Source of the DNA: a virus
Direction: 5' to 3' (one strand)
Length of the DNA stretch: 64,000 nt
IMG/VR virus record: IMGVR_UViG_3300032288_004702
Location: 62,001-126,000 of that record
The translations under genes were made by a program, and so were the position numbers. Positions within the stretch are counted from its first letter, which is position 1. Each line of letters begins with the position of its first letter. This document shows positions 1,525 to 20,440 of this stretch, piece by piece. Under the pieces are notes generated by a model, which searched no databases, had not been told where the DNA came from, and worked only from the letters and a program-made list of their open reading frames with translations.

Positions 1525-1746
1525 ATGAGGGAGAGAAGGGCAAACCCTCTAGATTTTTTTAAAACGTCGACAAAGTATGTCGACGACGAGACTGCCGAGT
1601 TGCGATACTCGATATGCGATGGATGCGAATTTTTCTTGCAAATCACAAAACAGTGCCGCAAGTGTGGCTGTTTTATGCATCTAAAGACAAAAATTGCACA
1701 CGCTGAATGCCCGATTAACAAGTGGGGTCCGGTCCTGACAGATTAA
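1525..1746 (+). CDS. Small zinc-ribbon protein, paralogue of preceding gene
   Basis: 73 aa with ICDGCEFF, CRKCGCFM and ECPINKW blocks, i.e. a four- to six-cysteine zinc ribbon. The ATG follows the previous TGA by 1 nt, suggesting translational coupling. Its 3' end overlaps by 4 nt the end of the convergent glycosyltransferase on the minus strand. A similar small CxxC protein is widespread in tailed phages, but its role is not established. Confidence 0.65.
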   Translation: MRERRANPLDFFKTSTKYVDDETAELRYSICDGCEFFLQITKQCRKCGCFMHLKTKIAHAECPINKWGPVLTD

Positions 1747-2804
1747 CTGTTCAGCTCGTACCATCCACCTCCCCATAGTGTTTCAAGTCTCCTGAAGTAT
1801 CGCTCATACATCAAACCTACAGCGTCGAGGCCGTATCTGTTCTTTGCGTATTGACCTATTGCCCGCCTATCAAGCTTTTCAGCATTAAGTGCCGCGTCAA
1901 TAAATTCCCGGAGTGTGTGACATCTAAAACCAGTTACCCCATCTTGCACTGTTTCTGTGAACGCCCCCCAGTCCGTTGATATTACGGGCGAGCCGCAGGC
2001 CATGGCCTCAATTGCGACAGTCCCAAATGGCTCAACGTATATTGTTGGAGTGAAAGTGGCTATTGCTCCACCCATTAATTTTGCTCTCTCTTCAGTCCCT
2101 ACTACGCCAACATACTCACCGTATTCCGGGGGTATTCCCTGACCTGCAATAATTAACCGCTTCCCAAGGTGTTTGCAAACATCTACAGCAATTTGATAAC
2201 CCTTGCGCTCTATTAGTCTTCCGATGTAGAGGTAGTAGTCATCTGGTTCTATTTGTGTCGGAAAATCATCGACATCTATATAGCTAGGTATTACGGTATC
2301 GTAGAACTTGCCATCTAGTACATGCGGGTCAGTAACTTTGGAGCCATAACAGGAGTGCATCCATGCATACGACTCAAAAACTTTGTACTTAGCGAAAGAA
2401 CCGCCGTATCCAATTCCGAACTCTACGCTTAGCTCGTCTGGAAAAGCATCTGCAATTGGCTTAGAGGCATAACCGGCGATGAGGCAAATAAAGTCCTTGT
2501 GCTCAAGACGCTTACGCATCTGATAAATAACATTTCCATTAAAAGTAACCCAGTGGGGCAGATTCCAGTCAAATGATGCTGCTGAATAGTGATTTTGCCC
2601 AACTGCTTGCAGCCGCTGCTCCTCGGTAATGCACATAATATGCTCATCACATGACGCTTCATTGAACTCTCCACCGTAAAGAAACACGGTATGGCCCAAG
2701 TTCTTCATCATTATGCAGAACTTGCGGACCTTCTCCGTATAAGCGCAGGCTGTAAATTCTTCAGTAGTGTTGGTGTGTGGTAGTGAAACTACGTGGAAAC
2801 GCAT
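1743..2804 (-). CDS. Glycosyltransferase, GT4 (GT-B fold) family
   Basis: 353 aa, the usual size for a GT4 enzyme, which transfers sugar from a nucleotide-sugar donor. The C-terminal Rossmann half contains the donor-binding signature: YIGRLIERKGY (~193-203), a GQG loop and the E-x7-E motif EPFGTVAIE (258-266), followed by a typical MACGSPVISTDWG strand-turn. The N-terminal acceptor domain is less conserved. It lies 9 nt downstream of the tail-collar fibre gene on the same strand. Context suggests modification of a virion or cell-surface glycan, but the acceptor cannot be read from sequence. Confidence 0.88.
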   Translation of the reverse strand: MRFHVVSLPHTNTTEEFTACAYTEKVRKFCIMMKNLGHTVFLYGGEFNEASCDEHIMCITEEQRLQAVGQNHYSAASFDWNLPHWVTFNGNVIYQMRKRLEHKDFICLIAGYASKPIADAFPDELSVEFGIGYGGSFAKYKVFESYAWMHSCYGSKVTDPHVLDGKFYDTVIPSYIDVDDFPTQIEPDDYYLYIGRLIERKGYQIAVDVCKHLGKRLIIAGQGIPPEYGEYVGVVGTEERAKLMGGAIATFTPTIYVEPFGTVAIEAMACGSPVISTDWGAFTETVQDGVTGFRCHTLREFIDAALNAEKLDRRAIGQYAKNRYGLDAVGLMYERYFRRLETLWGGGWYELNS

Positions 2805-2813
2805 TAAACCATC

Positions 2814-3782
2814 TTAATACTTGATAATGTAATTAACCGTAAGCATGGGCTGGATGTTTTCAACTGCGGAACTGGCCGTATACCCACCGTCCGTCGTGTT
2901 TGACGTGCTCGGTCCGCCTGTTGTTAGGTTGTTTGTATCAACCGTGACTGTATGTGCATGGCTATTGACACCATGCGAATGGTCGGAACTATGTCTATGG
3001 TCGTACATGCCATGGTTGTGGTATGGGTTTGAGTCGCCAGAGGTGCCGTTTGTGAACGAATGTTGATGGCTTCCTTCGTACTCCGATATTCCATAATTGG
3101 AAAGGTTTTGGCCCGATGCCGAAACCCTGGCTCTTGCCGTTCCCGACCCGGCATCAGTTACAAAATAAAGCCTATGCTCGTGATAGCCGGCTGAGTAATG
3201 GGTGTGGTCGACGCTGTGGTTGTGATTAATCGATACCGACTCTGTTCCGCTGGGGCTGGGAGAGCCTATTCCTGCAGATGCGGTGGTCGTACTGGTGGAT
3301 GTACCACCACTATTTCCCGTATTTGTTCCCACAGTATGGGCATGGCTGGCACTGTGGGTATGGCTATTAAGGCCATGGACGTGCGCCGGCATATTGTTGG
3401 CCACTAGCGTTACGGATTCTGTTCCATACCAAGAGCCCAATGCCCTATTGGTAAGAGTAGAGCCGCCCGATATTGCCCCGGATGACGCAGAGGTGCCACC
3501 GCCAGAACCCTGACCGGCCCCAACTAGCGTTCGTCCTTTTGTGTTTGGAACATGAAAGGTTGTACTTCCGTCGCCAGCTCCAAATGTGGTTGATATTGCT
3601 GCAAACAAGTTTGCATAGGTTGTTCTTGAATATGTAGAACCATCGCATAGCAGCCAACCGTCGGGGGCAGACGAGCCTGCATACGGCATCATCGCACCCG
3701 GAGGTATCAATTCAAATCCAGCAGGAACAGAGTCTGTCGATACGGTAATCCCGTCCTTTACGGCAAATTTAGTTCTCGGCAT
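2814..3782 (-). CDS. Tail fibre protein with phage tail-collar domain
   Basis: 322 aa. Residues ~25-95 are a tail-collar domain (P-x-G-x-MMPYAGSSAPDGWLLCDG, then YANLFAAI...FGAGDGSTTFHVPN and GRTLVGAG). The second half is rich in spaced His-x-His motifs (HSHTHSASHAH and similar), which in T4-type fibres coordinate metal along a trimeric needle, and ends in the common NIQPMLTVNYIIKY. A strong SD (AGGAGG) precedes the ATG, and the start overlaps the end of the upstream assembly-protein gene. Probably a receptor-binding short fibre. Confidence 0.88.
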   Translation of the reverse strand: MPRTKFAVKDGITVSTDSVPAGFELIPPGAMMPYAGSSAPDGWLLCDGSTYSRTTYANLFAAISTTFGAGDGSTTFHVPNTKGRTLVGAGQGSGGGTSASSGAISGGSTLTNRALGSWYGTESVTLVANNMPAHVHGLNSHTHSASHAHTVGTNTGNSGGTSTSTTTASAGIGSPSPSGTESVSINHNHSVDHTHYSAGYHEHRLYFVTDAGSGTARARVSASGQNLSNYGISEYEGSHQHSFTNGTSGDSNPYHNHGMYDHRHSSDHSHGVNSHAHTVTVDTNNLTTGGPSTSNTTDGGYTASSAVENIQPMLTVNYIIKY

Positions 3783-4140
3783 TCCGGTCCTCCTGCTGTG
3801 CGAGCTTTTGTTCGCTAGTCATTGCTGACCATGTTGACTCAAATGCATCAATATCCCAGTTTGCCCAAGTTGCAGGGACGCCCTGCCCAGGTAATGGACC
3901 TAGGTCTACGACATATGGCAATGGACTCTCAACAGTACTTGTTATATCCCGAACCCCTTGTCTCCAGATTCTCCAGTCATTTTTTATTTCATCAGACAGT
4001 GGGGAATCCGGTGATTGAGTCCAATCGCTTTCTTTTAACAAAACATCCCTCATCTGACGCAAAGCAGCCAATAGCTCTTCCTGTGTTGTCGCTGGCTTAT
4101 CAAACGGCGCAAGTGGCCAGCCATATATCTGAATTCTCAT
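3769..4140 (-). CDS. Tail fibre assembly-type protein
   Basis: 123 aa. The central block WTQSPDSPLSDE..NDWRIWRQGVRDI is typical of small tail-fibre assembly/chaperone proteins that sit beside fibre genes. It is coupled to the upstream gene by an ATGA overlap and to the collar fibre by a 14-nt overlap. Probably a chaperone for the collar fibre; inferred from motif and position. Confidence 0.7.
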   Translation of the reverse strand: MRIQIYGWPLAPFDKPATTQEELLAALRQMRDVLLKESDWTQSPDSPLSDEIKNDWRIWRQGVRDITSTVESPLPYVVDLGPLPGQGVPATWANWDIDAFESTWSAMTSEQKLAQQEDRNAEN

Positions 4141-4304
4141 GATTTATGACTTCCTTGCTCTTTTTCTTTTCTGATACTGTCTATGGCGGCTTTTGTCGTA
4201 TCAACGTCACCACCAAGGTGGTGTTTGGCAAACTGCTCCAGCATTGCCAGTTCCACGATTTCAACATCGCTATACACGACTACTTCTTTTTGAATATTTT
4301 CCAT
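4137..4304 (-). CDS. Small hypothetical protein
   Basis: 55 aa if translation starts at the ATG at 4304, which has a purine-rich GTGGGAAAA upstream; an ATG 27 nt further up is also possible. The start lies inside the 3' end of the upstream gene (25-nt overlap) and the stop overlaps the next ATG (ATGA). Predicted helical and charged, with no recognised domain. Confidence 0.5.
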   Translation of the reverse strand: MENIQKEVVVYSDVEIVELAMLEQFAKHHLGGDVDTTKAAIDSIRKEKEQGSHKS

Positions 4305-5065
4305 CTTTTTTTCCCACCATTTATAGGGCACTCGCTCAACATTTTATCAACCTTTATGCGTTCGCGCCTGTATGGACCCGCCGTTCCATCATGTGGCGCT
4401 ATGTGCCCCATCCCAAAACCAGTAGTGGCGACGTATTTAAAGTAGGACTCATCGTTGAAAACGATTTCCTCAAAATCTGAGTCTCTCTTAAACGGAATCA
4501 ACTGTGCAATTGGTGTTCCGACTTTTATGGAGAATGGGGCATTCCCCGTTATGTTTAGAACGATGTTGGCCAGGTGGTAATAATCTGTATTTATTATTGC
4601 CGGAAGAACTGAGAAGTTTTCATTCGGCTCCCAGTGAATAGGCAGAAGAATGGTTGACCACCCAGGCGCAGTCTCGAATCTCCAGGGGTTCACGAGTTTC
4701 GGATACTGCCCTGTTTCTATTTGCCTCATATCGGTTACTGGACACGAGCCGGTTGACTCATAAGCAAAGCCCTGAACGTTGTTGATACCAGCCTGGGGGC
4801 TGAAGTCATCCCCGCCCGTCTCCCAAGCTCCATGAGAATCTGGTCTAAATCGGTAGTTTGTCCAAAGGGGAAGGGTTACACCTGCCCCTAGATAATCGAT
4901 TGTCCCTGCGCAGCGCCTGATGGAGCCCTGATGTTTCCCAATTCTTTTAAACCATGAAGGCTGATTGGTAACGCTGTTTACGAATGGCGGAAACTCCATC
5001 ATTCTGTTGTCAACTGGAGTAAATCTAATTTGACCGGGTTTTACAGGGGGGAGCTTATGGCTCAT
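4280..5065 (-). CDS. Conserved hypothetical protein adjacent to halogenase (DUF6065-like)
   Basis: 261 aa. The start at 5065 is chosen because its ATGA overlaps the TGA of the halogenase gene. Recognisable blocks are WFKRIG, TLPLWTNYRF, the strand ILLPIHWEPN, INTDYYHLANIVLNI and GTPIAQLIPFKR. I associate this pattern with an uncharacterised family found near flavin halogenases and oxygenases, but the family name is from memory. It may act with the halogenase; no catalytic residues can be assigned. Confidence 0.65.
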   Translation of the reverse strand: MSHKLPPVKPGQIRFTPVDNRMMEFPPFVNSVTNQPSWFKRIGKHQGSIRRCAGTIDYLGAGVTLPLWTNYRFRPDSHGAWETGGDDFSPQAGINNVQGFAYESTGSCPVTDMRQIETGQYPKLVNPWRFETAPGWSTILLPIHWEPNENFSVLPAIINTDYYHLANIVLNITGNAPFSIKVGTPIAQLIPFKRDSDFEEIVFNDESYFKYVATTGFGMGHIAPHDGTAGPYRRERIKVDKMLSECPINGGKKRWKIFKKK

Positions 5066-6612
5066 TTGTACAACCATTCTTCATCGGGAGACGAAAGCTC
5101 TCTTAAAGCGGTTGCGTGGTCAACTAATTCATGGTTGTGTCTGCCCTGTCGCATTTTATCAATTTCGTAAAATACCTGTTCACGTATGGCCATCATATTC
5201 ATAGCGCGAGTGCAGGCATCTTTGCTTATTATTCCCTGGCCTTGGGCCACGTGGGCCAGGTGTGGAGCTTGGAACATTTCTCCTGAATTTGATTCGAAGT
5301 CATAACGTGACGGAGGTTTTTCTGACCAAAGCTCTATCAATTCTTGCAACTCTTCATTTATTGGCATGTTCGACATTTCTTTCCAAAAGGGAGTATCTTG
5401 TCTGTCGGTATAATAATGAAGCCTAATCATTGTCAGTATGTTGCGCATCATTTTGTCAAAACCCTTATTGAAATGTTTTTGCGACGCCGTGTGTCCCGGT
5501 GCGTAGGATGCAATATATGGAATTGACTGCCTAACTTGTTGAATCGTCGAACCAATGCTTGTCGCCTCAAGTGGCTCGACAAAAGAAGAAGCTAAACCTA
5601 TTGCTATGCAGTTTTTCACCCATGAATTTCTCAAATATCCGGCATCAAATGAAATTATTCGCGGATTTTCTACTTTGTATCCGGTCATTTTTTCTGCTTC
5701 AGCGATTGCCTGTTCCGGTGCCAAAAACTCGGAACAGAATACATAACCGTTTCCTCGACGCTCTTGAGTAGGAATCTCCCACATCCACCCCGAAGAAGCA
5801 GCCCTTGCTCTGGTGTATGGCCGTATCTTCCCATTTGGGTCACTTTCAGTTGGGAAAGGTATCGCTGTGTTGCTAAGAAGATACTTATTAAACGAAACCC
5901 ATTCTGTGTTGCCTAGCTTTGTCATCAAAAGTCTATTAAATCCACTCGCATCAAACCAAAAATCTGCATTGACTTCATCGCCTTGTGCAGTCTTTATTGA
6001 CTTAATGTTCCCATTTTCCGGGTTGACCAATACTTCCGAAACATCTCCATCGACAAACTTGACAGAACGCTTGAATGCGAGTGAAATAAAATACTCGTTT
6101 AGCTTAAACGTGTCAAAATGAAACTGATTCGTACTTGAGTGCAGTCCATTACGGCTTATTTTATCTTTTATGATTCCAACGCTTGATGTGTTTGGGGTAA
6201 ATAATCTGTCCTGCTCCATTAATCCCATGTAGGTTCCATAGAGACCAAAAGCAAAGATGTCGTCTACGGCCCCAACGCTGTGAAAATAGTCTGGATTTTT
6301 ATTGCACCAGTTTTCATACCTAATCCCATATTTATGGGTGGCGGATGTGGCGACAATCATTTCCTCCAAAGGGATTTCGCATATATCCATGAACTGGCGC
6401 CAATGCTCAGTGGAGCCCTCACCAACGCCGATTATTCCAATCTTTGATGAAGAAACTACGGTTATTTCAGATAGCGGAAAGGCTTTTCTGAGCAGCAAGG
6501 ATGCGATAAGACCGGCAGTGCCGGAGCCAACAATTGCTACTGATTGCGGCTTTTGACCAATTCCATTTGTGCGAATGTTTGTTAGGTCTTGGTTAGTCAC
6601 CATGTTTGACAT
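5062..6612 (-). CDS. Flavin-dependent halogenase (tryptophan-halogenase family)
   Basis: 516 aa, typical length. It should use FADH2, O2 and halide to make hypohalous acid that is passed to a catalytic lysine. Visible: FAD-binding GSGTAG (29-34), the GVGEGS loop (62-67), a candidate catalytic lysine in THKYGIRYENW (K94), the family signature W-M-W-E-I-P (276-281) that suppresses monooxygenation, and the active-site glutamate in FVEPLEATS (E346). All key residues are present, so the enzyme looks functional. Flavin must be reduced by a partner reductase; none is encoded nearby. Halogenases of this family are known from cyanophages. It overlaps the genes on both sides, so it belongs to one operon. 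Substrate unknown. Confidence 0.93.
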   Translation of the reverse strand: MSNMVTNQDLTNIRTNGIGQKPQSVAIVGSGTAGLIASLLLRKAFPLSEITVVSSSKIGIIGVGEGSTEHWRQFMDICEIPLEEMIVATSATHKYGIRYENWCNKNPDYFHSVGAVDDIFAFGLYGTYMGLMEQDRLFTPNTSSVGIIKDKISRNGLHSSTNQFHFDTFKLNEYFISLAFKRSVKFVDGDVSEVLVNPENGNIKSIKTAQGDEVNADFWFDASGFNRLLMTKLGNTEWVSFNKYLLSNTAIPFPTESDPNGKIRPYTRARAASSGWMWEIPTQERRGNGYVFCSEFLAPEQAIAEAEKMTGYKVENPRIISFDAGYLRNSWVKNCIAIGLASSFVEPLEATSIGSTIQQVRQSIPYIASYAPGHTASQKHFNKGFDKMMRNILTMIRLHYYTDRQDTPFWKEMSNMPINEELQELIELWSEKPPSRYDFESNSGEMFQAPHLAHVAQGQGIISKDACTRAMNMMAIREQVFYEIDKMRQGRHNHELVDHATALRELSSPDEEWLYK

Positions 6613-7300
6613 ATACGGTAAACGCTATCTGTGTTGGGATGTGGAAAGAAGTGAACAGCCCGGAGTTTAGTATCTGCTGATGTACTAGATATGCGCCAGT
6701 TTCATCCCCGTTTTCATAGAGATTCCCCAAATCTGAAGCATTTGAAACAACCAAAACACCATTGCTGTTCAGCGAAGAGATGACAGCATCTAGCAGATGC
6801 TCGTTAAAACCGAGAGACTGACAATAAACGAGAGCCATATCCTGTGTTCCAGCAAGAGAGGCAATATCAGAATAATTGACGGTTGTAAAGTTATCAAAAA
6901 TTGAAACATCTGAATACTTGCACACACTTTGTGTGATAATCGTATTTAAGACAGTAACTTCGTCAATATATGGGGCAACCCTTGTTAGGCTTTCTAAGGC
7001 ACCAACAACAAACATTTTCTGCGGTTGGCGCATTCTCACAAGGGCTTCGACTATGTCTACACATGCAGCAATTAGGTTTCTGAATTCTGCATTGTCGTCT
7101 GAGCCGAGAATGAACGAATGGAACTCGTCTACAAAAATAACGCGCTCTAATGGTATGCCTGATGAGTCATATACTTGACGCATCTTGACATAGATATTTT
7201 TCAGTTCGTTATCAGAAAGAACTGGGGCAGAGTCACCGTTAGCCCTAGTGTGCATGGACCTGGCAATGCGAGACATTTCCTCAATTGTGAAATTAGGCAT
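6593..7300 (-). CDS. Hypothetical protein, possibly Rossmann/methyltransferase-like
   Basis: 235 aa. Residues ~105-200 alternate hydrophobic strands and helices (FVVGALESL, VTVLNTII, SIFDNF, MALVYCQSLG, LNSNGVLVVSNASD) in the order of a class I methyltransferase, but the usual GxGxG SAM loop is not evident. The N-terminal third contains IPLERVIFVDEFHSF, compatible with a nucleotide-binding fold. The stop overlaps the halogenase start. I do not recognise the family. Confidence 0.6.
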   Translation of the reverse strand: MPNFTIEEMSRIARSMHTRANGDSAPVLSDNELKNIYVKMRQVYDSSGIPLERVIFVDEFHSFILGSDDNAEFRNLIAACVDIVEALVRMRQPQKMFVVGALESLTRVAPYIDEVTVLNTIITQSVCKYSDVSIFDNFTTVNYSDIASLAGTQDMALVYCQSLGFNEHLLDAVISSLNSNGVLVVSNASDLGNLYENGDETGAYLVHQQILNSGLFTSFHIPTQIAFTVYVKHGD

Positions 7301-7529
7301 TTGTTGCCTCCTCGATTAATGGCGCAAGGAATTTTGCAAAATATAGATGACGCAATTCTCCGTATGCCCGGTTGTACTCTGCAGGGGTGAGATTTGACCT
7401 TAGCCCGCTTTTGACAGTTTTATAGTTTTCCTCGGTTACGGTCATATCCGAAACTCCGGCTAGTCCGCAGATGCGAATCATTCTTGTTTCCACATACTGC
7501 ATGTGGTCCTCTAGCGAATAGCTAATCAT
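7293..7529 (-). CDS. Hypothetical protein
   Basis: 78 aa. The start at 7529 (MISYSLEDH) is preferred because it overlaps the stop of the upstream gene by 8 nt. Mostly helical, with 'LTPAEYNRAYGELRHLYFAKFLAPL' split between two helices. No recognised domain; part of the halogenase operon by overlap with both neighbours. Confidence 0.55.
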   Translation of the reverse strand: MISYSLEDHMQYVETRMIRICGLAGVSDMTVTEENYKTVKSGLRSNLTPAEYNRAYGELRHLYFAKFLAPLIEEATNA

Positions 7530-7779
7530 CGTCTTCCTCTTGTTTAAATGACGGCATTGGCGTCGACATGAAAATGCACCTAAACTTATCACCTTCTGAG
7601 TCGATGACAGCATGTTGGGTTAGGTCGTATTTTTTGGCTACCCACTCCATCTCGTCGTAATCTGCTTCAACCAGGTCTTGGTGGTCTTTTTCTTTTAGTG
7701 AATCGCCATCCCATGGCCTTCTATTTCTTATGTTTCCTATTGGTCTAAAATGCGATGAAAAATAACTGAATATACTCAT
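7522..7779 (-). CDS. Hypothetical protein
   Basis: 85 aa with an acidic tail (EEDDD). The ATG overlaps the stop of the 2OG-oxygenase gene. No recognised domain; translationally coupled to the oxygenase. Confidence 0.55.
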   Translation of the reverse strand: MSIFSYFSSHFRPIGNIRNRRPWDGDSLKEKDHQDLVEADYDEMEWVAKKYDLTQHAVIDSEGDKFRCIFMSTPMPSFKQEEDDD

Positions 7780-8357
7780 CTAAACCACGTCACTAACGAA
7801 TATTTAGTCCCAGCGACCACGGGGTGCGCTATATGGAGATATGGAAAATTGCTAGGAAACATAACTACCGAACCTGCTTCGCATTCTACGGTTGTATCAA
7901 ATAGGGGGAACTCTAAACTTCCGCCCGATTCGGGGGAAACAAGGTTTGCAACCATACTGAAAACTCTGGCGTTATCCCTGAAATGGTCATAGTGGCTATG
8001 GTATTCAGACTCTGGCAAATATTTGAGCACTTGATACGGCTCGAACACTGCGCTCGCTATTAAATATTCTTTTCTATAGTCTTCCGCAACCTCAGCAACC
8101 TGGTCTCCTATTGTTCTTTGAAAAAACTTAGACAATTCGGTTTCTGGATATGGTTTCATAAATGAAACTAACGAGCAGGATAAAGAAGTGCGATATTGCG
8201 TTATGGCACCCTGGCCAACACCAGACGAACCCCATCCGAGCTCTGACCATTCATTTTCAATTTCTTCATTAAGCATATTTATAAAAGATTTCGCCATATC
8301 TGGCTCGAAAACTTCTTTATATACGGTTATGCAGGTTGCTGGTTTTTCAATTTTCAT
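7776..8357 (-). CDS. 2-oxoglutarate/Fe(II)-dependent oxygenase (prolyl-4-hydroxylase-like)
   Basis: 193 aa. The double-stranded beta-helix core is visible: iron-binding H122-x-D124 in HSHYDHF, a distal histidine (H178 in IAHPV) and a basic residue K185 in GTKYSL for the 2OG carboxylate, with a GGSLEFP turn and AGSVVMFPS strand between. It probably hydroxylates a protein or small-molecule substrate. Its operon with the halogenase suggests sequential oxidative tailoring, which is inference. ATGA overlap with the upstream gene. Confidence 0.85.
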   Translation of the reverse strand: MKIEKPATCITVYKEVFEPDMAKSFINMLNEEIENEWSELGWGSSGVGQGAITQYRTSLSCSLVSFMKPYPETELSKFFQRTIGDQVAEVAEDYRKEYLIASAVFEPYQVLKYLPESEYHSHYDHFRDNARVFSMVANLVSPESGGSLEFPLFDTTVECEAGSVVMFPSNFPYLHIAHPVVAGTKYSLVTWFR

Positions 8358-8776
8358 ACAACCTCAAAGGAAGATACTAAAAATTTTTCATCATTATCGA
8401 ATATGGCAAATTCATATGTGCCTGCTTCATGGAAGCGAGTTCTAAACTTTACGACGTGGCGCTCCAGGACTGTTGGTTTATGGCTAGTTTTAACCCCGGC
8501 TGGCGAAACAGTTTCCATTCTTGTTTCTCGGCCCATATTGAGAAATTCGTTTGTTACGTCTACAGAAAAAATACGGCCGGACTTAACTGTCTCGTCGTGG
8601 TTGGCGGCACAAAACTCAGGAACTGAAATAATAGAAATTGATTCCTTATTTATACCGTCTCCAATGGAGCCAGTCCTGATTGACAGCTGGGCATCTTTTG
8701 CGAGTTTTTCAGCTTCTTTTGGTACTACCAAATCATTTTCAACTAGAAAATGCGGGACATAGACAAAACGTTTCAT
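8354..8776 (-). CDS. Hypothetical beta-rich protein
   Basis: 140 aa. The C-terminal ~60 residues (HVVKFRTRFHEAGTYEFAI..DEKFLVSSF) look like an Ig-type beta sandwich. It overlaps the oxygenase start (ATGA) and the end of the next gene up. Possibly a virion accessory protein; not recognised. Confidence 0.5.
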   Translation of the reverse strand: MKRFVYVPHFLVENDLVVPKEAEKLAKDAQLSIRTGSIGDGINKESISIISVPEFCAANHDETVKSGRIFSVDVTNEFLNMGRETRMETVSPAGVKTSHKPTVLERHVVKFRTRFHEAGTYEFAIFDNDEKFLVSSFEVV

Positions 8777-9017: not shown

Positions 9018-10769
9018 CTAAACATTCAGTAGGACATAGGAACTTCCAGAAGATGCGGAAAAATTATCCGAATCGGCCGTAAGACCAGCCCTTGTATCAT
9101 ATGTAATCGTAGCATCTATGGAGTCGGTAAGGACGAGGATTGAGCCCCCTCCACCTGCTCCACCACGCTTTCCAGTTGAGCCTATTCCGCCTGTTCCCCC
9201 TGCGCCACCCGCTCCGCCGGCGCCCCCTGCTCCGCCTGCCCCTCCAGCCCCTCCGGCGCCCCCCACTCCGCCTGGTCCGCCTGGTCCACCTGCATAGTGG
9301 CTATTGGGGTTCGGGTGTGTATGTGGTGCTACGTGGTGATGGTGCCAGGTGGGTGTAGTTGTTGGATGGTGTGCATGTGTGTGGCTATGGTGCGGAAGGC
9401 CAAAATGAGCATGGACATGTCCATCGTGTCCGCCAAACGAACCGTGATAAACGCCTGAGTGGTGATACCCGTTTCCGTCTCCATGGCTATGGCCACCGTG
9501 GCCGTTCGGCTTTTGGTGGTAGTGGGGGAACGGGTGACTGTGGCTTATCTGGAAATAAGCATGCCACCAATGACCATCCCAGTGATGAGCGCCACCATGT
9601 GGACCATCATTATGCGGGTGGTGATAGTGACCAGCATGGTGATGGTGTGGTCCTAGATAGTGATGACCCTTGCCGCCATCAACGTGGGCCCTAACGGAGT
9701 GCGCATGCCGGTCTGAGTGATTTGTGTAATGGTGATGGTGGGAATAATTTCGCGCATCAGGGTTTGGTACGGAGGTTGCCGGGTTTGAGTGAGTAATTCC
9801 AGGCGCTGCAGAGCCGGGAGTTCCTGCAGAGCCGGGAGTTCCTGTGGCCCCAGATGCTCCAGGAGAACCGCTAGCCCCACTTGCGCCAACTGCTCCGGTT
9901 GTTCCAGGGCTTCCAGCAGAACCCGTAGAACCGGACATTCCTAGTGAAATAAATTTTCCCGAACCTGTGATGTACTTTGCCACAATGCAGACAACGCCAC
10001 CACCCATCCCGCCAGTTCCTCCAGCGCCTCCAGCTCCACCAACGCCAGAAGCACCAGGACTACCACTAGCACCACGATTTCCACTAGCACCCGAAGCGCC
10101 CACGGAACCAGGTGAACCCGAAGCACCTGGATAGCCTTTTCCACCAGAAGCGCCAACGGTTGAAGCATTTGGTGGATATGCGCCATTAGCCCCTGGAGTG
10201 CCAGTAGCACCAGCGGAGCCAGCAGAACCAGGAGAGCCAGTAGCACCAGGAGAGCCGGTGGCACCAGCAGAACCAGCAGGCGAGGAACCGGATGCGCCCA
10301 CCGAACCAGTTGAGCCGCGCGAGCCACCAGACATTGGTGAAACACCAAGTGTTGGGTCAATCATTAATCCACCAGACATGGCACTAATGTCTTTATATAG
10401 GTAGGAAGGCAATGCTGTAACGCCGGGGTTGGTCCCACCGCCACCCTGACCGCCGGTTCTGTATGTTATTGCGCCAGAAGTATGACCCTTTAATGTCCCA
10501 TCAGAAACAGCACTTGCTGGCTCCCCTATGGTTCCCGATGTAACGGAACCCAAACCAATGTACCCATCGTTAACTAAAGTGTTTTTTACAAAGACTCTGT
10601 AACCGTTTGTATTGAGAAAAACGCCAGAGTTAACGGTCAAATTATTGTAATACATGTCTGAAGTGATTGATGTATCAGAAGTGATTGTTACGTCGCCGTC
10701 TGTTCCACTCCCGTAGATTCCGTCATTTCCAGAACGACCGACACTTGACTCAACCCTATTGATAGCCAT
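9018..10769 (-). CDS. Collagen-like, histidine-rich fibre/adhesin protein
   Basis: 583 aa. N-terminal ~120 residues form a beta-rich head ('YGSGTDGDVTI.. MYYNNLTVNSG'), shared with the next gene upstream. Then come Gly-X-Y repeats rich in GSPGATGSPG and GASG, then ~170 residues in which histidine is extremely abundant (HHHHYTNHSDRHAH and similar), then a second GGAGGAGG block and a beta-rich C-terminus. Collagen-type repeats make trimeric stalks of tail fibres; the His segment may bind metal or change state with pH. The cassette lies among other fibre genes. Product function is inferred. Confidence 0.8.
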   Translation of the reverse strand: MAINRVESSVGRSGNDGIYGSGTDGDVTITSDTSITSDMYYNNLTVNSGVFLNTNGYRVFVKNTLVNDGYIGLGSVTSGTIGEPASAVSDGTLKGHTSGAITYRTGGQGGGGTNPGVTALPSYLYKDISAMSGGLMIDPTLGVSPMSGGSRGSTGSVGASGSSPAGSAGATGSPGATGSPGSAGSAGATGTPGANGAYPPNASTVGASGGKGYPGASGSPGSVGASGASGNRGASGSPGASGVGGAGGAGGTGGMGGGVVCIVAKYITGSGKFISLGMSGSTGSAGSPGTTGAVGASGASGSPGASGATGTPGSAGTPGSAAPGITHSNPATSVPNPDARNYSHHHHYTNHSDRHAHSVRAHVDGGKGHHYLGPHHHHAGHYHHPHNDGPHGGAHHWDGHWWHAYFQISHSHPFPHYHQKPNGHGGHSHGDGNGYHHSGVYHGSFGGHDGHVHAHFGLPHHSHTHAHHPTTTPTWHHHHVAPHTHPNPNSHYAGGPGGPGGVGGAGGAGGAGGAGGAGGAGGAGGTGGIGSTGKRGGAGGGGSILVLTDSIDATITYDTRAGLTADSDNFSASSGSSYVLLNV

Positions 10770-10771
10770 AA

Positions 10772-11535
10772 CTACACCCGCGTAATGTAGATATATGTTC
10801 CAGGATTTTGACCAGTCACATCTGTTGATATTCCACTAGGAAGAGAGGAACCGGAAGAAACAACAATAATCACTCCGCCACCAGCAGGAGCTGTTCCTGG
10901 TGCTTTTATATATGCCGTTCCAGAAGAAGGTCCAGAAATGTATCTTGCTGCGATTATCACAACACCACCGCCAGCCTCGCCTGCACCGCCGGCACCTCCA
11001 CGTAGGAAACTTGGTCCACCGGATGCCGTAACGGCATAACCAGTAATAGCCTGATGTGCAACTCTGAAATAGTTTGGGCCACCCATCGCATCAGTTGGAG
11101 CCGTTGCCGAATATCCAGTAGCTGAGCCACCGAGAGAATGCGTTACAGCAGTTGCTGCTTCACCACCCTGCGCAATAGAACCAGCGGTTGAATAACCAGA
11201 CGTATATCCGATTGTCGCATTCGTTCCTGCAAACTTAAGAGTCCCCTTAACGAACACCCTGTATCCGTTCGGCTGAAGACGACAGCTTGTGTTGATTGTT
11301 AGGTCGTTGAAGAACATATCGCGCGTCATTGTGTAGACGCTTGCAGAAGGGCCCATCCCAAGTATGGTTGTTGAGCCATCAAGAACAACATCACCATCCG
11401 AGCCGTTGCCGTACACAATGTCAGCACCTTCGTTGTAGTAGGCAACCCACACAGAACCATCCCACTGCCAACTCTTTGAACCGACAGTATAAATCTGGTT
11501 TGTGTATGGAGAAGACGGAAAAGTAATCGCAGGCA

Positions 11536-11536
<1 letters not shown>
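10772..11536 (-). CDS. Tail fibre/adhesin protein, Gly-rich
   Basis: 254 aa. Begins with FPSSPYTNQIY..SKSWQWDGSVWV, the same N-terminal module as the next upstream protein ([23 protein letters not shown]), probably a virion-attachment segment. The middle (YGNGSDGDVVLDGSTTI...FNDLTINTS) matches the head of the downstream histidine-rich protein. Likely a paralogous fibre subunit; neighbours are separated by 0-3 nt. Confidence 0.75.
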
Positions 11537-15532
<3,996 letters not shown>

Positions 15533-17955: not shown

Positions 17956-19047
17956 ATGAAGAAGCCGCAAAAACCTACAGTTGCATTTCTCACGCATGAC
18001 TGGGCGTGGGGAACCGACCCACTCCAGCCAAATGGATGTGCATGGTATAGATGCAAGCTCCCGTCAGATGAGCTCAATAAGCGTGGATGGTTTACCGCAA
18101 CTGGTTTCCCTGGATTTAACAACCAGCGAGGATTTGGGATGTTGGTGGACGGGGGGAGGGCTGTTCACGGCTGGGACATAATAGTTTTAAAACTGTTGAT
18201 GCAGAAAGAGATACTCGAGTCAATCCCAAAAGCTCAAGCTATGGGCCAAAAAATAGTTGTAGATATTGACGACTGGTTTGACGGATTGTCTAAGTCGAAC
18301 AGGGCGCATGAAGCAACAGACCCAAAGAAGAACCCTGCGTCAAATAGGGAAATCTATGCCCAAATAATTATGGCAGCAGACGCTGTCATCACGTCAACAC
18401 CGTTTCTTTTCGAGTACTACGGCAAAAAGCGTGACAATGTATTTATGGTCAGAAACGGCATAGACCTTGATAGATGGAAGAAAAAATCAATAACAAATAC
18501 GCGAAAGACAAGAGTTGGGTGGGTTGGGGCAACCCACTGGCGGTCAAACGACCTAGAACAATTGTCTGGCTTTATGGGGAAATATATAAGGTCTCGCAAT
18601 ATTCTATTTCATCATTCGGGGCATAACGACAGTGCGCCATTGGCCAGCGAACTAATAGGTGTTGATAGGTCTCTGTCAAAAACGAGCCCAATGGCCCCAA
18701 TACTTCAATACCCGGCGTTATTAACTCCGATTGATATTGGAATTATCCCACTTAACAACATTCAGTTCAACCATGCTAAATCTTTTATAAAAGGCCTTGA
18801 GTATGCCGCTGCTGGCGTCCCTTTCATTTCTTCATACTCACCCGAGTATCAGTATTTAGCAGACAACGGAATAGGACGCATAGCTAATACAGAAAAAGAA
18901 TGGATATATCATTTAGACGAATTGCTAGACATCAATAAAAGACGGGATGATGCATTGGAAAACCTTTCGCACATACACAAGTTTTCAATGGATTCTCGAG
19001 GGGACGACTGGGACGCAACAATGAGATTTATAAAGGACAACATATGA
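17956..19047 (+). CDS. Glycosyltransferase (GT4-like)
   Basis: 363 aa with GT-B architecture. The N-terminal half has HDWAWGTDPLQPNGCAWYR, IVVDIDDW and ADAVITSTPFL; the C-terminal half has FMVRNGIDLDRW, RVGWVGATHWR and the donor-side KSFIKGLEYAAAGVPFI.SSYSPEY with an E in the place of the last E of E-x7-E. Its stop overlaps the PhyH gene by 4 nt. It probably glycosylates a surface or virion component together with the next two enzymes. Confidence 0.83.
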   Translation: MKKPQKPTVAFLTHDWAWGTDPLQPNGCAWYRCKLPSDELNKRGWFTATGFPGFNNQRGFGMLVDGGRAVHGWDIIVLKLLMQKEILESIPKAQAMGQKIVVDIDDWFDGLSKSNRAHEATDPKKNPASNREIYAQIIMAADAVITSTPFLFEYYGKKRDNVFMVRNGIDLDRWKKKSITNTRKTRVGWVGATHWRSNDLEQLSGFMGKYIRSRNILFHHSGHNDSAPLASELIGVDRSLSKTSPMAPILQYPALLTPIDIGIIPLNNIQFNHAKSFIKGLEYAAAGVPFISSYSPEYQYLADNGIGRIANTEKEWIYHLDELLDINKRRDDALENLSHIHKFSMDSRGDDWDATMRFIKDNI

Positions 19048-19865
19048 ATACTGAATATAAAGAACACCTTGAAGCACAGTACGCAGAACTAACAGTTCCG
19101 GCTCCAGAACCAGGGCCAGCGGACTGGAATGACGATGGTTTTGTAATCAAGAAGGGGTTGATACCGGAAAATCTGATGGAAGAGTACGAGGCATGTTGGA
19201 TTGACAACAATGCAGAGTACGTAGACGGGAAGCTATCAATGACACGGCCCGGCGGATGGCCAGACTGCACACCGTACCGCAGACATCAAGAAGTGATGGA
19301 CATCCTCACCTATAAGGAAATATCCGACACAATGGAGGAGCTAATAGGCGAACCAGCTGCTGTTCACCTAAACCTAACTGGGTGGGTAACAACAACTAGA
19401 GATTGGCACCAAGATACGTATCTCAATCCTCCGCATGTTGGCGATTACTACGTGGCAATCTGGATAGCACTAGAAACGATAAATCCAGATTCTGGGCCAT
19501 TTCAACTGGTTCCAGGCTCGCATAGATGGCCAACTGTTACTCAGGAAAAAATCCTTAACGCTCTTCCAGAAGATAAACGCGATTATCGTTGGCCTCGATT
19601 CAGTGAAGAAATACTGACTCCAATATTTACGCACGAAATAGAAAAAAGAAATGCTGAAGTTTTGACTTATTTACCGGAGCGTGGAGACGTTCTCTTTTGG
19701 CATGGTCGACTGCTTCATAGGGGTTCAAAGCCAAATAATCCATCGCTTGCGCGTAAATCGCTGATTGCTCACTATTCAGGAATAAACCACAGACAGGATA
19801 TGCCAAAAGCATTAAAACACGTAGATGGATGGTACTTTCCAATAGATGGGGGTAATAACGTATGA
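19044..19865 (+). CDS. Phytanoyl-CoA dioxygenase (PhyH) family oxygenase
   Basis: 273 aa. Fe(II)/2OG site visible: H122-x-D124 in WHQDTYL, H225 in LLHRGSKPNN and R237 in ARKSLIAHY for 2OG. GPFQLVPGSHRWP (151-163) is a PhyH hallmark. ATGA overlaps on both sides couple it to the glycosyltransferase and methyltransferase. PhyH-family enzymes hydroxylate lipids and many small molecules; here a sugar or lipid modification is plausible but unproven. Confidence 0.9.
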   Translation: MNTEYKEHLEAQYAELTVPAPEPGPADWNDDGFVIKKGLIPENLMEEYEACWIDNNAEYVDGKLSMTRPGGWPDCTPYRRHQEVMDILTYKEISDTMEELIGEPAAVHLNLTGWVTTTRDWHQDTYLNPPHVGDYYVAIWIALETINPDSGPFQLVPGSHRWPTVTQEKILNALPEDKRDYRWPRFSEEILTPIFTHEIEKRNAEVLTYLPERGDVLFWHGRLLHRGSKPNNPSLARKSLIAHYSGINHRQDMPKALKHVDGWYFPIDGGNNV

Positions 19866-20440
19866 GCAACTATCTAAACGCTGGATGTGGAACGCATTAC
19901 GCAAAAGGTTGGATAAATACAGATACATGGGAGACAGACGACACAACCCCAGATGTTCGTGTTGAGCCAGGAAAACCGTACCCATTCGAGGAAAATTTTT
20001 TTGATGCCGTATTTCTGGGGCATGTTCTGGAGCACATTCCATGGAAAGAAGTTCCGGCATTCCTCGCAGATATGAAGAGGGTCGCAAAACCGGGAGCAAA
20101 GTTTTTAATATGTGGTCCCGACGTCTTCAAGACAATCCATAGATGGGCGAATGGGCAGGAACCATGGGAAATGGTTATGTCGGTATTGGAGCATCTTGAC
20201 GTAGAGAATCACAGCGTGCCTGGTCTTGAGTGGTGGGATGGGGCACATCATCATTGGAATTGTCATAACGACCGTGTTGTAAAACTGCTTGATTCATGTG
20301 GTTTCTCGAACATTACTGACGTATTTGATGTAATTCCAAAGAATCCTCTTGGGAAAAACTGGAATGACGGGAAAATAAACTGGCCAGTCGTCGGTCATTG
20401 GCATTGGCACTTTGCGGTTACTTGTATAAACAATAAATAA
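19862..20440 (+). CDS. SAM-dependent methyltransferase, class I
   Basis: 192 aa. LNAGCGTHYAKGWINTD is SAM motif I with the acidic residue at the end of beta2, FDAVFLGHVLEHIPW is the motif around strand 4, and AKPGAKFLICGPD is the post-motif strand. This form of methyltransferase is frequent in sugar-modification clusters. Third gene of the GT-PhyH-MT operon, separated by 38 nt from the next secreted protein. Confidence 0.88.
   Translation: MSNYLNAGCGTHYAKGWINTDTWETDDTTPDVRVEPGKPYPFEENFFDAVFLGHVLEHIPWKEVPAFLADMKRVAKPGAKFLICGPDVFKTIHRWANGQEPWEMVMSVLEHLDVENHSVPGLEWWDGAHHHWNCHNDRVVKLLDSCGFSNITDVFDVIPKNPLGKNWNDGKINWPVVGHWHWHFAVTCINNK

Follow-up and report, generated by a model that had tools for sequence, protein, structure and literature searches.

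Halogenases encoded by phages are already known, among them VirX1, an iodinase of cyanophage Syn10 (PDB 6qgm), and an enzyme deposited from an actinophage (DSL-LC01). To our knowledge, no natural substrate has been established for the viral halogenases, VirX1 included. A review names none, and VirX1 was found to accept diverse small aromatics (PMC8407142). Furthermore, a jumbo-cyanophage cluster has been described in which a halogenase occurs together with several 2-oxoglutarate (2OG) oxygenases and with carbamoyltransferases, and which was read as serving secondary metabolism or capsule decoration (PMC7824862). Here we analyze a halogenase gene and its neighbors in a 64,000-nt stretch of DNA, referred to as the window, that forms part of a 156-kb viral record (IMG/VR IMGVR_UViG_3300032288_004702, positions 62,001 to 126,000). 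Like VirX1, with which it shares about 27 to 29% identity, the predicted enzyme is a viral flavin halogenase with the lysine, WxW-type, and EPLE motifs, and like the jumbo-cyanophage cluster the locus combines a halogenase with 2OG oxygenase chemistry; its constant partner, in contrast, is a His-rich tail fiber adhesin. We judge it somewhat better than an even call that this operon is a posttranslational modification cassette for the tip of the phage's own tail fiber.

An earlier note on this DNA, made from the sequence alone, had placed a complete halogenase gene and an oxygenase gene in one phage operon. Both genes were found where it had located them, on the minus strand, the halogenase gene is complete, and the overlaps that had been described with a DUF gene (16 bp) and with a Rossmann-like gene (20 bp) are real. 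The adjacent His-rich adhesin was not mentioned in that note. Read 5' to 3' on the minus strand, the row consists of the fiber genes (15532 to 9018), a gene for a 140-amino-acid (aa) protein, the 2OG oxygenase, two small open reading frames (ORFs), the Rossmann-like gene, the halogenase, the DUF gene, a tail assembly chaperone, a collar fiber, and a glycosyltransferase.

Linkage of halogenase and adhesin across viral contigs

The halogenase-anchored scan of related contigs yielded 80 loci, which were clustered at 90% identity; since such scans return the closest relatives first, the linkage figures apply to this lineage rather than to all phage halogenases. A near-invariant row emerged, in which the adhesin is followed by the 140-aa protein, the oxygenase, in part of the loci a methyltransferase-like protein, the halogenase, and the DUF protein. 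Of 41 clusters, 40 have the DUF gene next to the halogenase, with an overlap of the two in 37; the exception is locus L074, which lacks the DUF gene. A long His-rich ORF lies within 2.6 kb upstream of the halogenase in 32 of the 35 clusters with enough sequence (His content is weaker at L066 and L079). Of 177 long plus-strand ORFs, 32 are His-dense, and every one of these occupies this slot. The reverse scans, many of whose loci sit on contigs already present in the first scan, gave the same picture: with the adhesin as the anchor, each His-rich locus that extended far enough downstream had the oxygenase, halogenase, and DUF genes; the DUF anchor recovered the halogenase at 75/75 and the His-rich fiber at 68/75 loci, and the oxygenase anchor recovered each of the two at 70/73, with the shortfall at contig ends. 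The glycosyltransferase and methyltransferase-like genes vary in presence between loci. Against two relatives, the tested cassette genes show nonsynonymous divergence (dN) of 0.07 to 0.22 and synonymous divergence (dS) of at least 1.6, often saturated, and are thus under strong purifying selection. With this selection and its conservation in dozens of contigs, the gene array is far above chance.

The linkage persists among sequences with as little as about 45% identity, and part of it is also seen in cyanophages, at about 27%. In Syn10, Gly-rich fiber genes adjoin the halogenase, behind which come a second halogenase and then a homologue of the DUF gene (hhalign E 4.5e-12). The Syn10 Gly-rich fiber was found in 12 records, and every one of them belongs to a phage that also carries a halogenase. 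At each of six cyanophage loci inspected (Syn10, S-CREM1, S-RIM44, P-TIM40, S-WAM1, and P-RSM6), the halogenase lies behind fiber-region genes and is itself followed by DUF and/or 2OG oxygenase genes, and in P-SSM2 fiber assembly genes and a 2OG oxygenase adjoin the halogenase. Compared with the window, the Syn10 fibers are less His-rich and the oxygenases lie behind rather than before the halogenase. A profile comparison of the Syn10 fiber with the actinophage adhesin was not significant, and the two fiber types may be unrelated. As a separate observation, four cyanophage loci (L083, L088, L089, and L307) encode two overlapping tandem halogenases, which in three of the four directly precede a DUF gene.

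Features of the halogenase

The halogenase (516 aa; 5062..6612, minus strand) matched the Pfam Trp_halogenase profile (PF04820) with 340.5 bits (E 2e-101; cut-off 21) and PHROG 2928, tryptophan halogenase, with an E value of 4.9e-103. Its best phmmer match in the PDB was 6nsd (E 4.8e-56), followed by BrvH (6frl; E 6.5e-56), and VirX1 was also matched. GSGTAG, K94, and WMWEIP, all named in the earlier note, are present, whereas its choice of E346 as the catalytic Glu has to be revised. According to phmmer alignments to the PDB relatives, the relay lysine (K79 of PrnA) corresponds to K94, and the catalytic Glu of PrnA, conventionally E346, corresponds to E349 of the window enzyme (EPLE349). Residue E346 of the latter is the first Glu of the EPLE motif and is also invariant. 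Among 40 aligned relatives, GxGxxG is kept in 40, WxWxIP in 37, K94 in 40, and E349 in 39. The motif FX[DE]PX[EFL] is likewise present, as it is in 39/40 relatives. Motifs Trp1 and Trp4 for free tryptophan as substrate, as defined in PMC8269204, each occur in 0/40 relatives, and a free-tryptophan enzyme was rejected on this ground. By its profile and main motifs, the protein is therefore assigned to the flavin-dependent halogenase (FDH) family, by its tunnel motif it appears as a variant, and by its substrate motifs it is predicted not to be a tryptophan halogenase. Halogenating activity is likely.

The His-rich adhesin

The candidate substrate is a Gly-rich, collagen-like protein of 583 aa (9018..10769, minus strand), recognized as a distal tail fiber adhesin by the Pfam Collagen profile, hhalign, and its linkage. 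Its hypervariable middle segment (residues 312 to 516; 9222..9836, minus strand) contains 51 His, 9 Tyr, and 4 Trp residues and thus about 25% His. Across 24 relatives, this segment has 22.5% His compared with 0.6% in the flanks, and its identity is 34% compared with 59% in the N-domain. The protein had no match in phage records. Its N-domain matches the tail adhesin of the haloarchaeal virus HCTV-8 (hhalign E 6.8e-6), over 61 columns only. In view of this related N-domain, the Gly-rich repeats, and the hypervariable segments, it can be classified as a putative gp38-type Gly-rich tail adhesin. The haloarchaeal adhesin type is reported to track host range in its virus family (PMC8651126). Some relatives (L040, L053, L054, L059, and L071) have shorter His-rich segments with added Cys residues, often in pairs, which suggests possible metal sites.

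The proteins encoded between adhesin and chaperone

The oxygenase (193 aa; 7776..8357, minus strand) is an Fe(II)/2OG enzyme with H122-x-D124, H175, and K185. It matched 2OG-FeII_Oxy_3 of Pfam (PF13640) with 47.7 bits (E 3.1e-12), and its best PDB profile matches were prolyl 4-hydroxylases (E 1e-11). The HxD...H triad was found in 28/28 proteins and the 2OG-binding Lys in 27 of these 28, in agreement with the prolyl-4-hydroxylase type.

The DUF protein (265 aa; 4280..5077, minus strand; PHROG 7084) was modeled by AlphaFold with a mean local confidence score (pLDDT) of 86. Its Foldseek matches are dUTPases (best E 8.3e-5), with template modeling scores of about 0.6 to 0.7 by target and about 0.33 by query, and its profile matched dUTPases of the PDB with an E value of 9e-4. 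As judged from the model, the protein contains a dUTPase-type barrel in one domain only. Motif 3 of dUTPases has lost its catalytic Asp here, with N163 at this position in the window protein and His or Asn in 43/44 relatives; because of this replacement the protein is probably not a dUTPase, and a role as a working dUTPase was discarded. The label DUF6065-like, given to it earlier, finds weak backing among its relatives, 4 of 47 of which matched the DUF6065 profile (PF19541; best E 0.0024), and none in the window protein, which gave no match, and membership in that family is not assigned. A literature search, with most subscription journals outside its reach, found no paper on DUF6065. In HCTV-8, a DUF homologue (L087, 4896-5729) is encoded three genes away from the adhesin, and there is no halogenase gene in the vicinity.

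The Rossmann-like protein (235 aa; 6593..7300, minus strand) has a class I methyltransferase fold (AlphaFold pLDDT 80.5; Foldseek matches to O-methyltransferases, E 6e-10) and no match in phage records. The Gly-rich motif I for S-adenosylmethionine is degenerate in 16/16 of these methyltransferase-like proteins, which are therefore not counted as class I methyltransferases and are probably non-catalytic or altered. An active methyltransferase is doubtful also because many loci lack the gene. Of the two small conserved ORFs on the same strand, the one of 106 aa (7293..7613; the true start may be internal) was found at 15 loci, mostly beside the methyltransferase-like gene, and the one of 85 aa (7522..7779) in close relatives only. 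The conserved 140-aa protein between adhesin and oxygenase (8354..8776, minus strand) is present at 64/86 loci and had no convincing match in PDB, Pfam, or PHROG; an Ig-like assignment was rejected (Pfam E 0.12 only, no credible PDB match) and the protein was left unnamed.

A possible modification system for the fiber tip and its alternatives

In the explanation favored here, a host reductase would supply the halogenase with reduced flavin adenine dinucleotide (FADH2), which is consistent with the finding that no flavin reductase gene of PF01613 was detected in the phage. The halogenase would then generate hypohalous acid (HOX), relayed through K94, and before virions are assembled HOX would halogenate Trp, Tyr, or His side chains of the adhesin. 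The oxygenase would hydroxylate the adhesin at Pro or another residue of its collagen-like or Gly-rich part, and the dUTPase-fold protein, its catalytic Asp lost, may assist in docking or assembling the fiber or the halogenase. The result would be a receptor-binding tip that is hardened, metal-tuned, or chemically diversified. The earlier note had listed a surface glycan, a peptide, or a host metabolite as substrates; the near-invariant genomic linkage narrows this list and points to the adjacent His-rich adhesin as the candidate, and the absence of Trp1 and Trp4 agrees with a substrate other than free tryptophan. A wider proposal, to which we give somewhat less than even credence, is that phages belonging to two or more distant groups halogenate and hydroxylate their own fiber tip by means of a dedicated operon, that VirX1-type enzymes naturally serve to halogenate virion proteins, and that the His-rich tip is a receptor-binding material which has been hardened chemically or loaded with metal.

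Several observations weigh against a fiber-directed role. Linkage is no proof of substrate, and tail regions also carry phage cargo genes. Trp and Tyr are better halogenation targets than His, and the pattern of His residues, sometimes with Cys pairs, fits metal binding alone. In the L061-L064 lineage, the cassette occurs without a His-rich fiber and with the DUF gene upstream of the halogenase, the DSL-LC01 halogenase has no oxygenase, DUF, or His-rich adhesin gene adjacent, and the halogenases of S-H38 and HTVC008M and one copy in Sf-CH3 are not beside an adhesin. Some phage halogenases lie away from tail genes, which is in line with the main rival, namely that in the infected cell the halogenase acts with the oxygenase and glycosyltransferase in making or decorating either a halogenated small metabolite or a host surface glycan, such as the capsule, for superinfection exclusion or as a toxin against competitors. 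This auxiliary biosynthesis, which we regard as unlikely though deserving of serious attention, corresponds to the published reading of the jumbo-cyanophage cluster (PMC7824862), and it would accord with the glycosyltransferase gene nearby (1743-2804) and the small aromatics taken by VirX1 (PMC8407142). However, the near-invariant partners here are the DUF protein, the oxygenase, and the adhesin, whereas the glycosyltransferase and methyltransferase-like genes are inconstant, and no carrier protein, ligase, or transporter gene was seen in the array.

The tunnel of the halogenase raises a different objection. In characterized enzymes, the catalytic Glu is followed by a Ser (S347), to which A350 corresponds in the window enzyme; the residue is Ala in 37/40 relatives, and for this reason activity is not certain. 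All active FDHs are said to have the motif Fx.Px.Sx.G or charged variants of it (PMC8407142), whereas the window enzyme has FVEPLEATS, with Ala for Ser and Ser for Gly, and 2/40 of the family match the motif. The flavoprotein may accordingly act on the fiber as a hydroxylase or oxidant, for example, by Trp or His oxidation or cross-linking. We consider this quite improbable, given that K94, E349, FX[DE]PX[EFL], and WxWxIP are all kept, the last of which has been suggested to prevent monooxygenation (PMC8407142). It is also very improbable that the array is unrelated cargo hitchhiking in a tail fiber exchange cassette: fiber regions are exchange hot spots and partners such as the methyltransferase-like gene vary, but the near-total linkage, which persists at about 45% identity and partly reaches the cyanophages, the overlapping frames, and the strong purifying selection argue against it. 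If the habitat was lake-type water, a low content of bromide and iodide would again suit a fiber hydroxylase or oxidant. Extremely improbable, finally, is a modification of pyrimidines in nucleotides or DNA by the dUTPase-fold protein, the oxygenase, and the halogenase; dUTPases and 2OG enzymes do feature in phage base modification biology (PMC7824862) and the fold of the DUF protein is dUTPase-like, but the motif 3 Asp is Asn or His in 43/44 and the genes lie in the fiber module rather than among replication genes.

Should modification of the fiber tip be confirmed, it would represent a new kind of virion chemistry and, through modified receptor-binding tips, a new layer of phage host-range chemistry. 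Protein-acting halogenases would also gain a new natural source, and a function could be given to some of the numerous 2OG oxygenases of phages that are currently ascribed to DNA repair or nitrogen metabolism. The near-invariant link between halogenase and adhesin makes the substrate question directly testable by proteomics.

Neighboring genes and host

The other genes of the row, all on the minus strand, encode a tail fiber assembly chaperone-like protein (3769..4140; PF16778, E 2.9e-12), a tail collar/fiber protein with HxH clusters and 23 His residues (2814..3782; PF07484, E 6.6e-23), a GT4-type glycosyltransferase (1743..2804; PF00534, E 7e-18; PHROG 3408, E 1e-85), and three further fiber proteins (10772..15532), two of which are collagen-like by Pfam Collagen, with GPTGATG repeats. 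The host is very probably an actinobacterium, as the earlier note had assumed, because the 156-kb record carries two WhiB genes, all 156 phage records matching its phosphoesterase are actinophages, and the cassette also occurs on a contig of an Actinomycetota metagenome-assembled genome, although this contig measures only 9 kb and could be mis-binned.

Two further regions of the window may be mentioned. Three overlapping genes on the plus strand (17956-20440), a second possible modification group, encode an unannotated protein of 363 aa that by eye is glycosyltransferase-like, a PhyH-type 2OG oxygenase (PF05721), and a class I methyltransferase. From about 38000 to 64000, the G+C content is higher, small genes are numerous, and intergenic stretches translate to recurring peptides, GTxFPxLST and YYSP among them, as would fit a regulatory element repeated upstream of genes.

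Comparison with known systems

No description of an adhesin-linked halogenase cassette was found in the literature searched, most subscription journals lying outside the search. The statement of the earlier note that it knew of no such operon in an actinophage needs to be qualified, since an annotated halogenase exists in Actinomycetia phage DSL-LC01 (L082, 11992-13563), though without an oxygenase or DUF partner. This gene lies beside collagen-like fibers and a glycosyltransferase; its product is 23% identical to the window enzyme and has an Asp at the position of the catalytic Glu (DFSS compared with EATS). The Syn10 enzymes differ in another way, in that they keep the tunnel Ser (ESNG and ESTG) where the window enzyme has EATS. 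BrvH and other non-tryptophan FDHs resemble the window halogenase in lacking tryptophan-binding motif 4, and BrvH has EPLESTS compared with EPLEATS; we know of no fiber operon around BrvH.

For the adhesin, an analogy, and only that, is offered by the jaw proteins of Nereis (Nvjp-1 and Nai11527), in which a Gly- and His-rich structural protein is tied to halogen and zinc (PMC13120676), although these belong to animal tissue and share no homology with it. The S16 gp38-type and haloarchaeal hafunavirus adhesins have Gly-rich repeats and hypervariable segments, as does the window adhesin (PMC8651126, PMC6851490). In contrast to these, the hypervariable part is here a His-rich block of 100 to 280 aa, and genes for putative modifying enzymes lie downstream.

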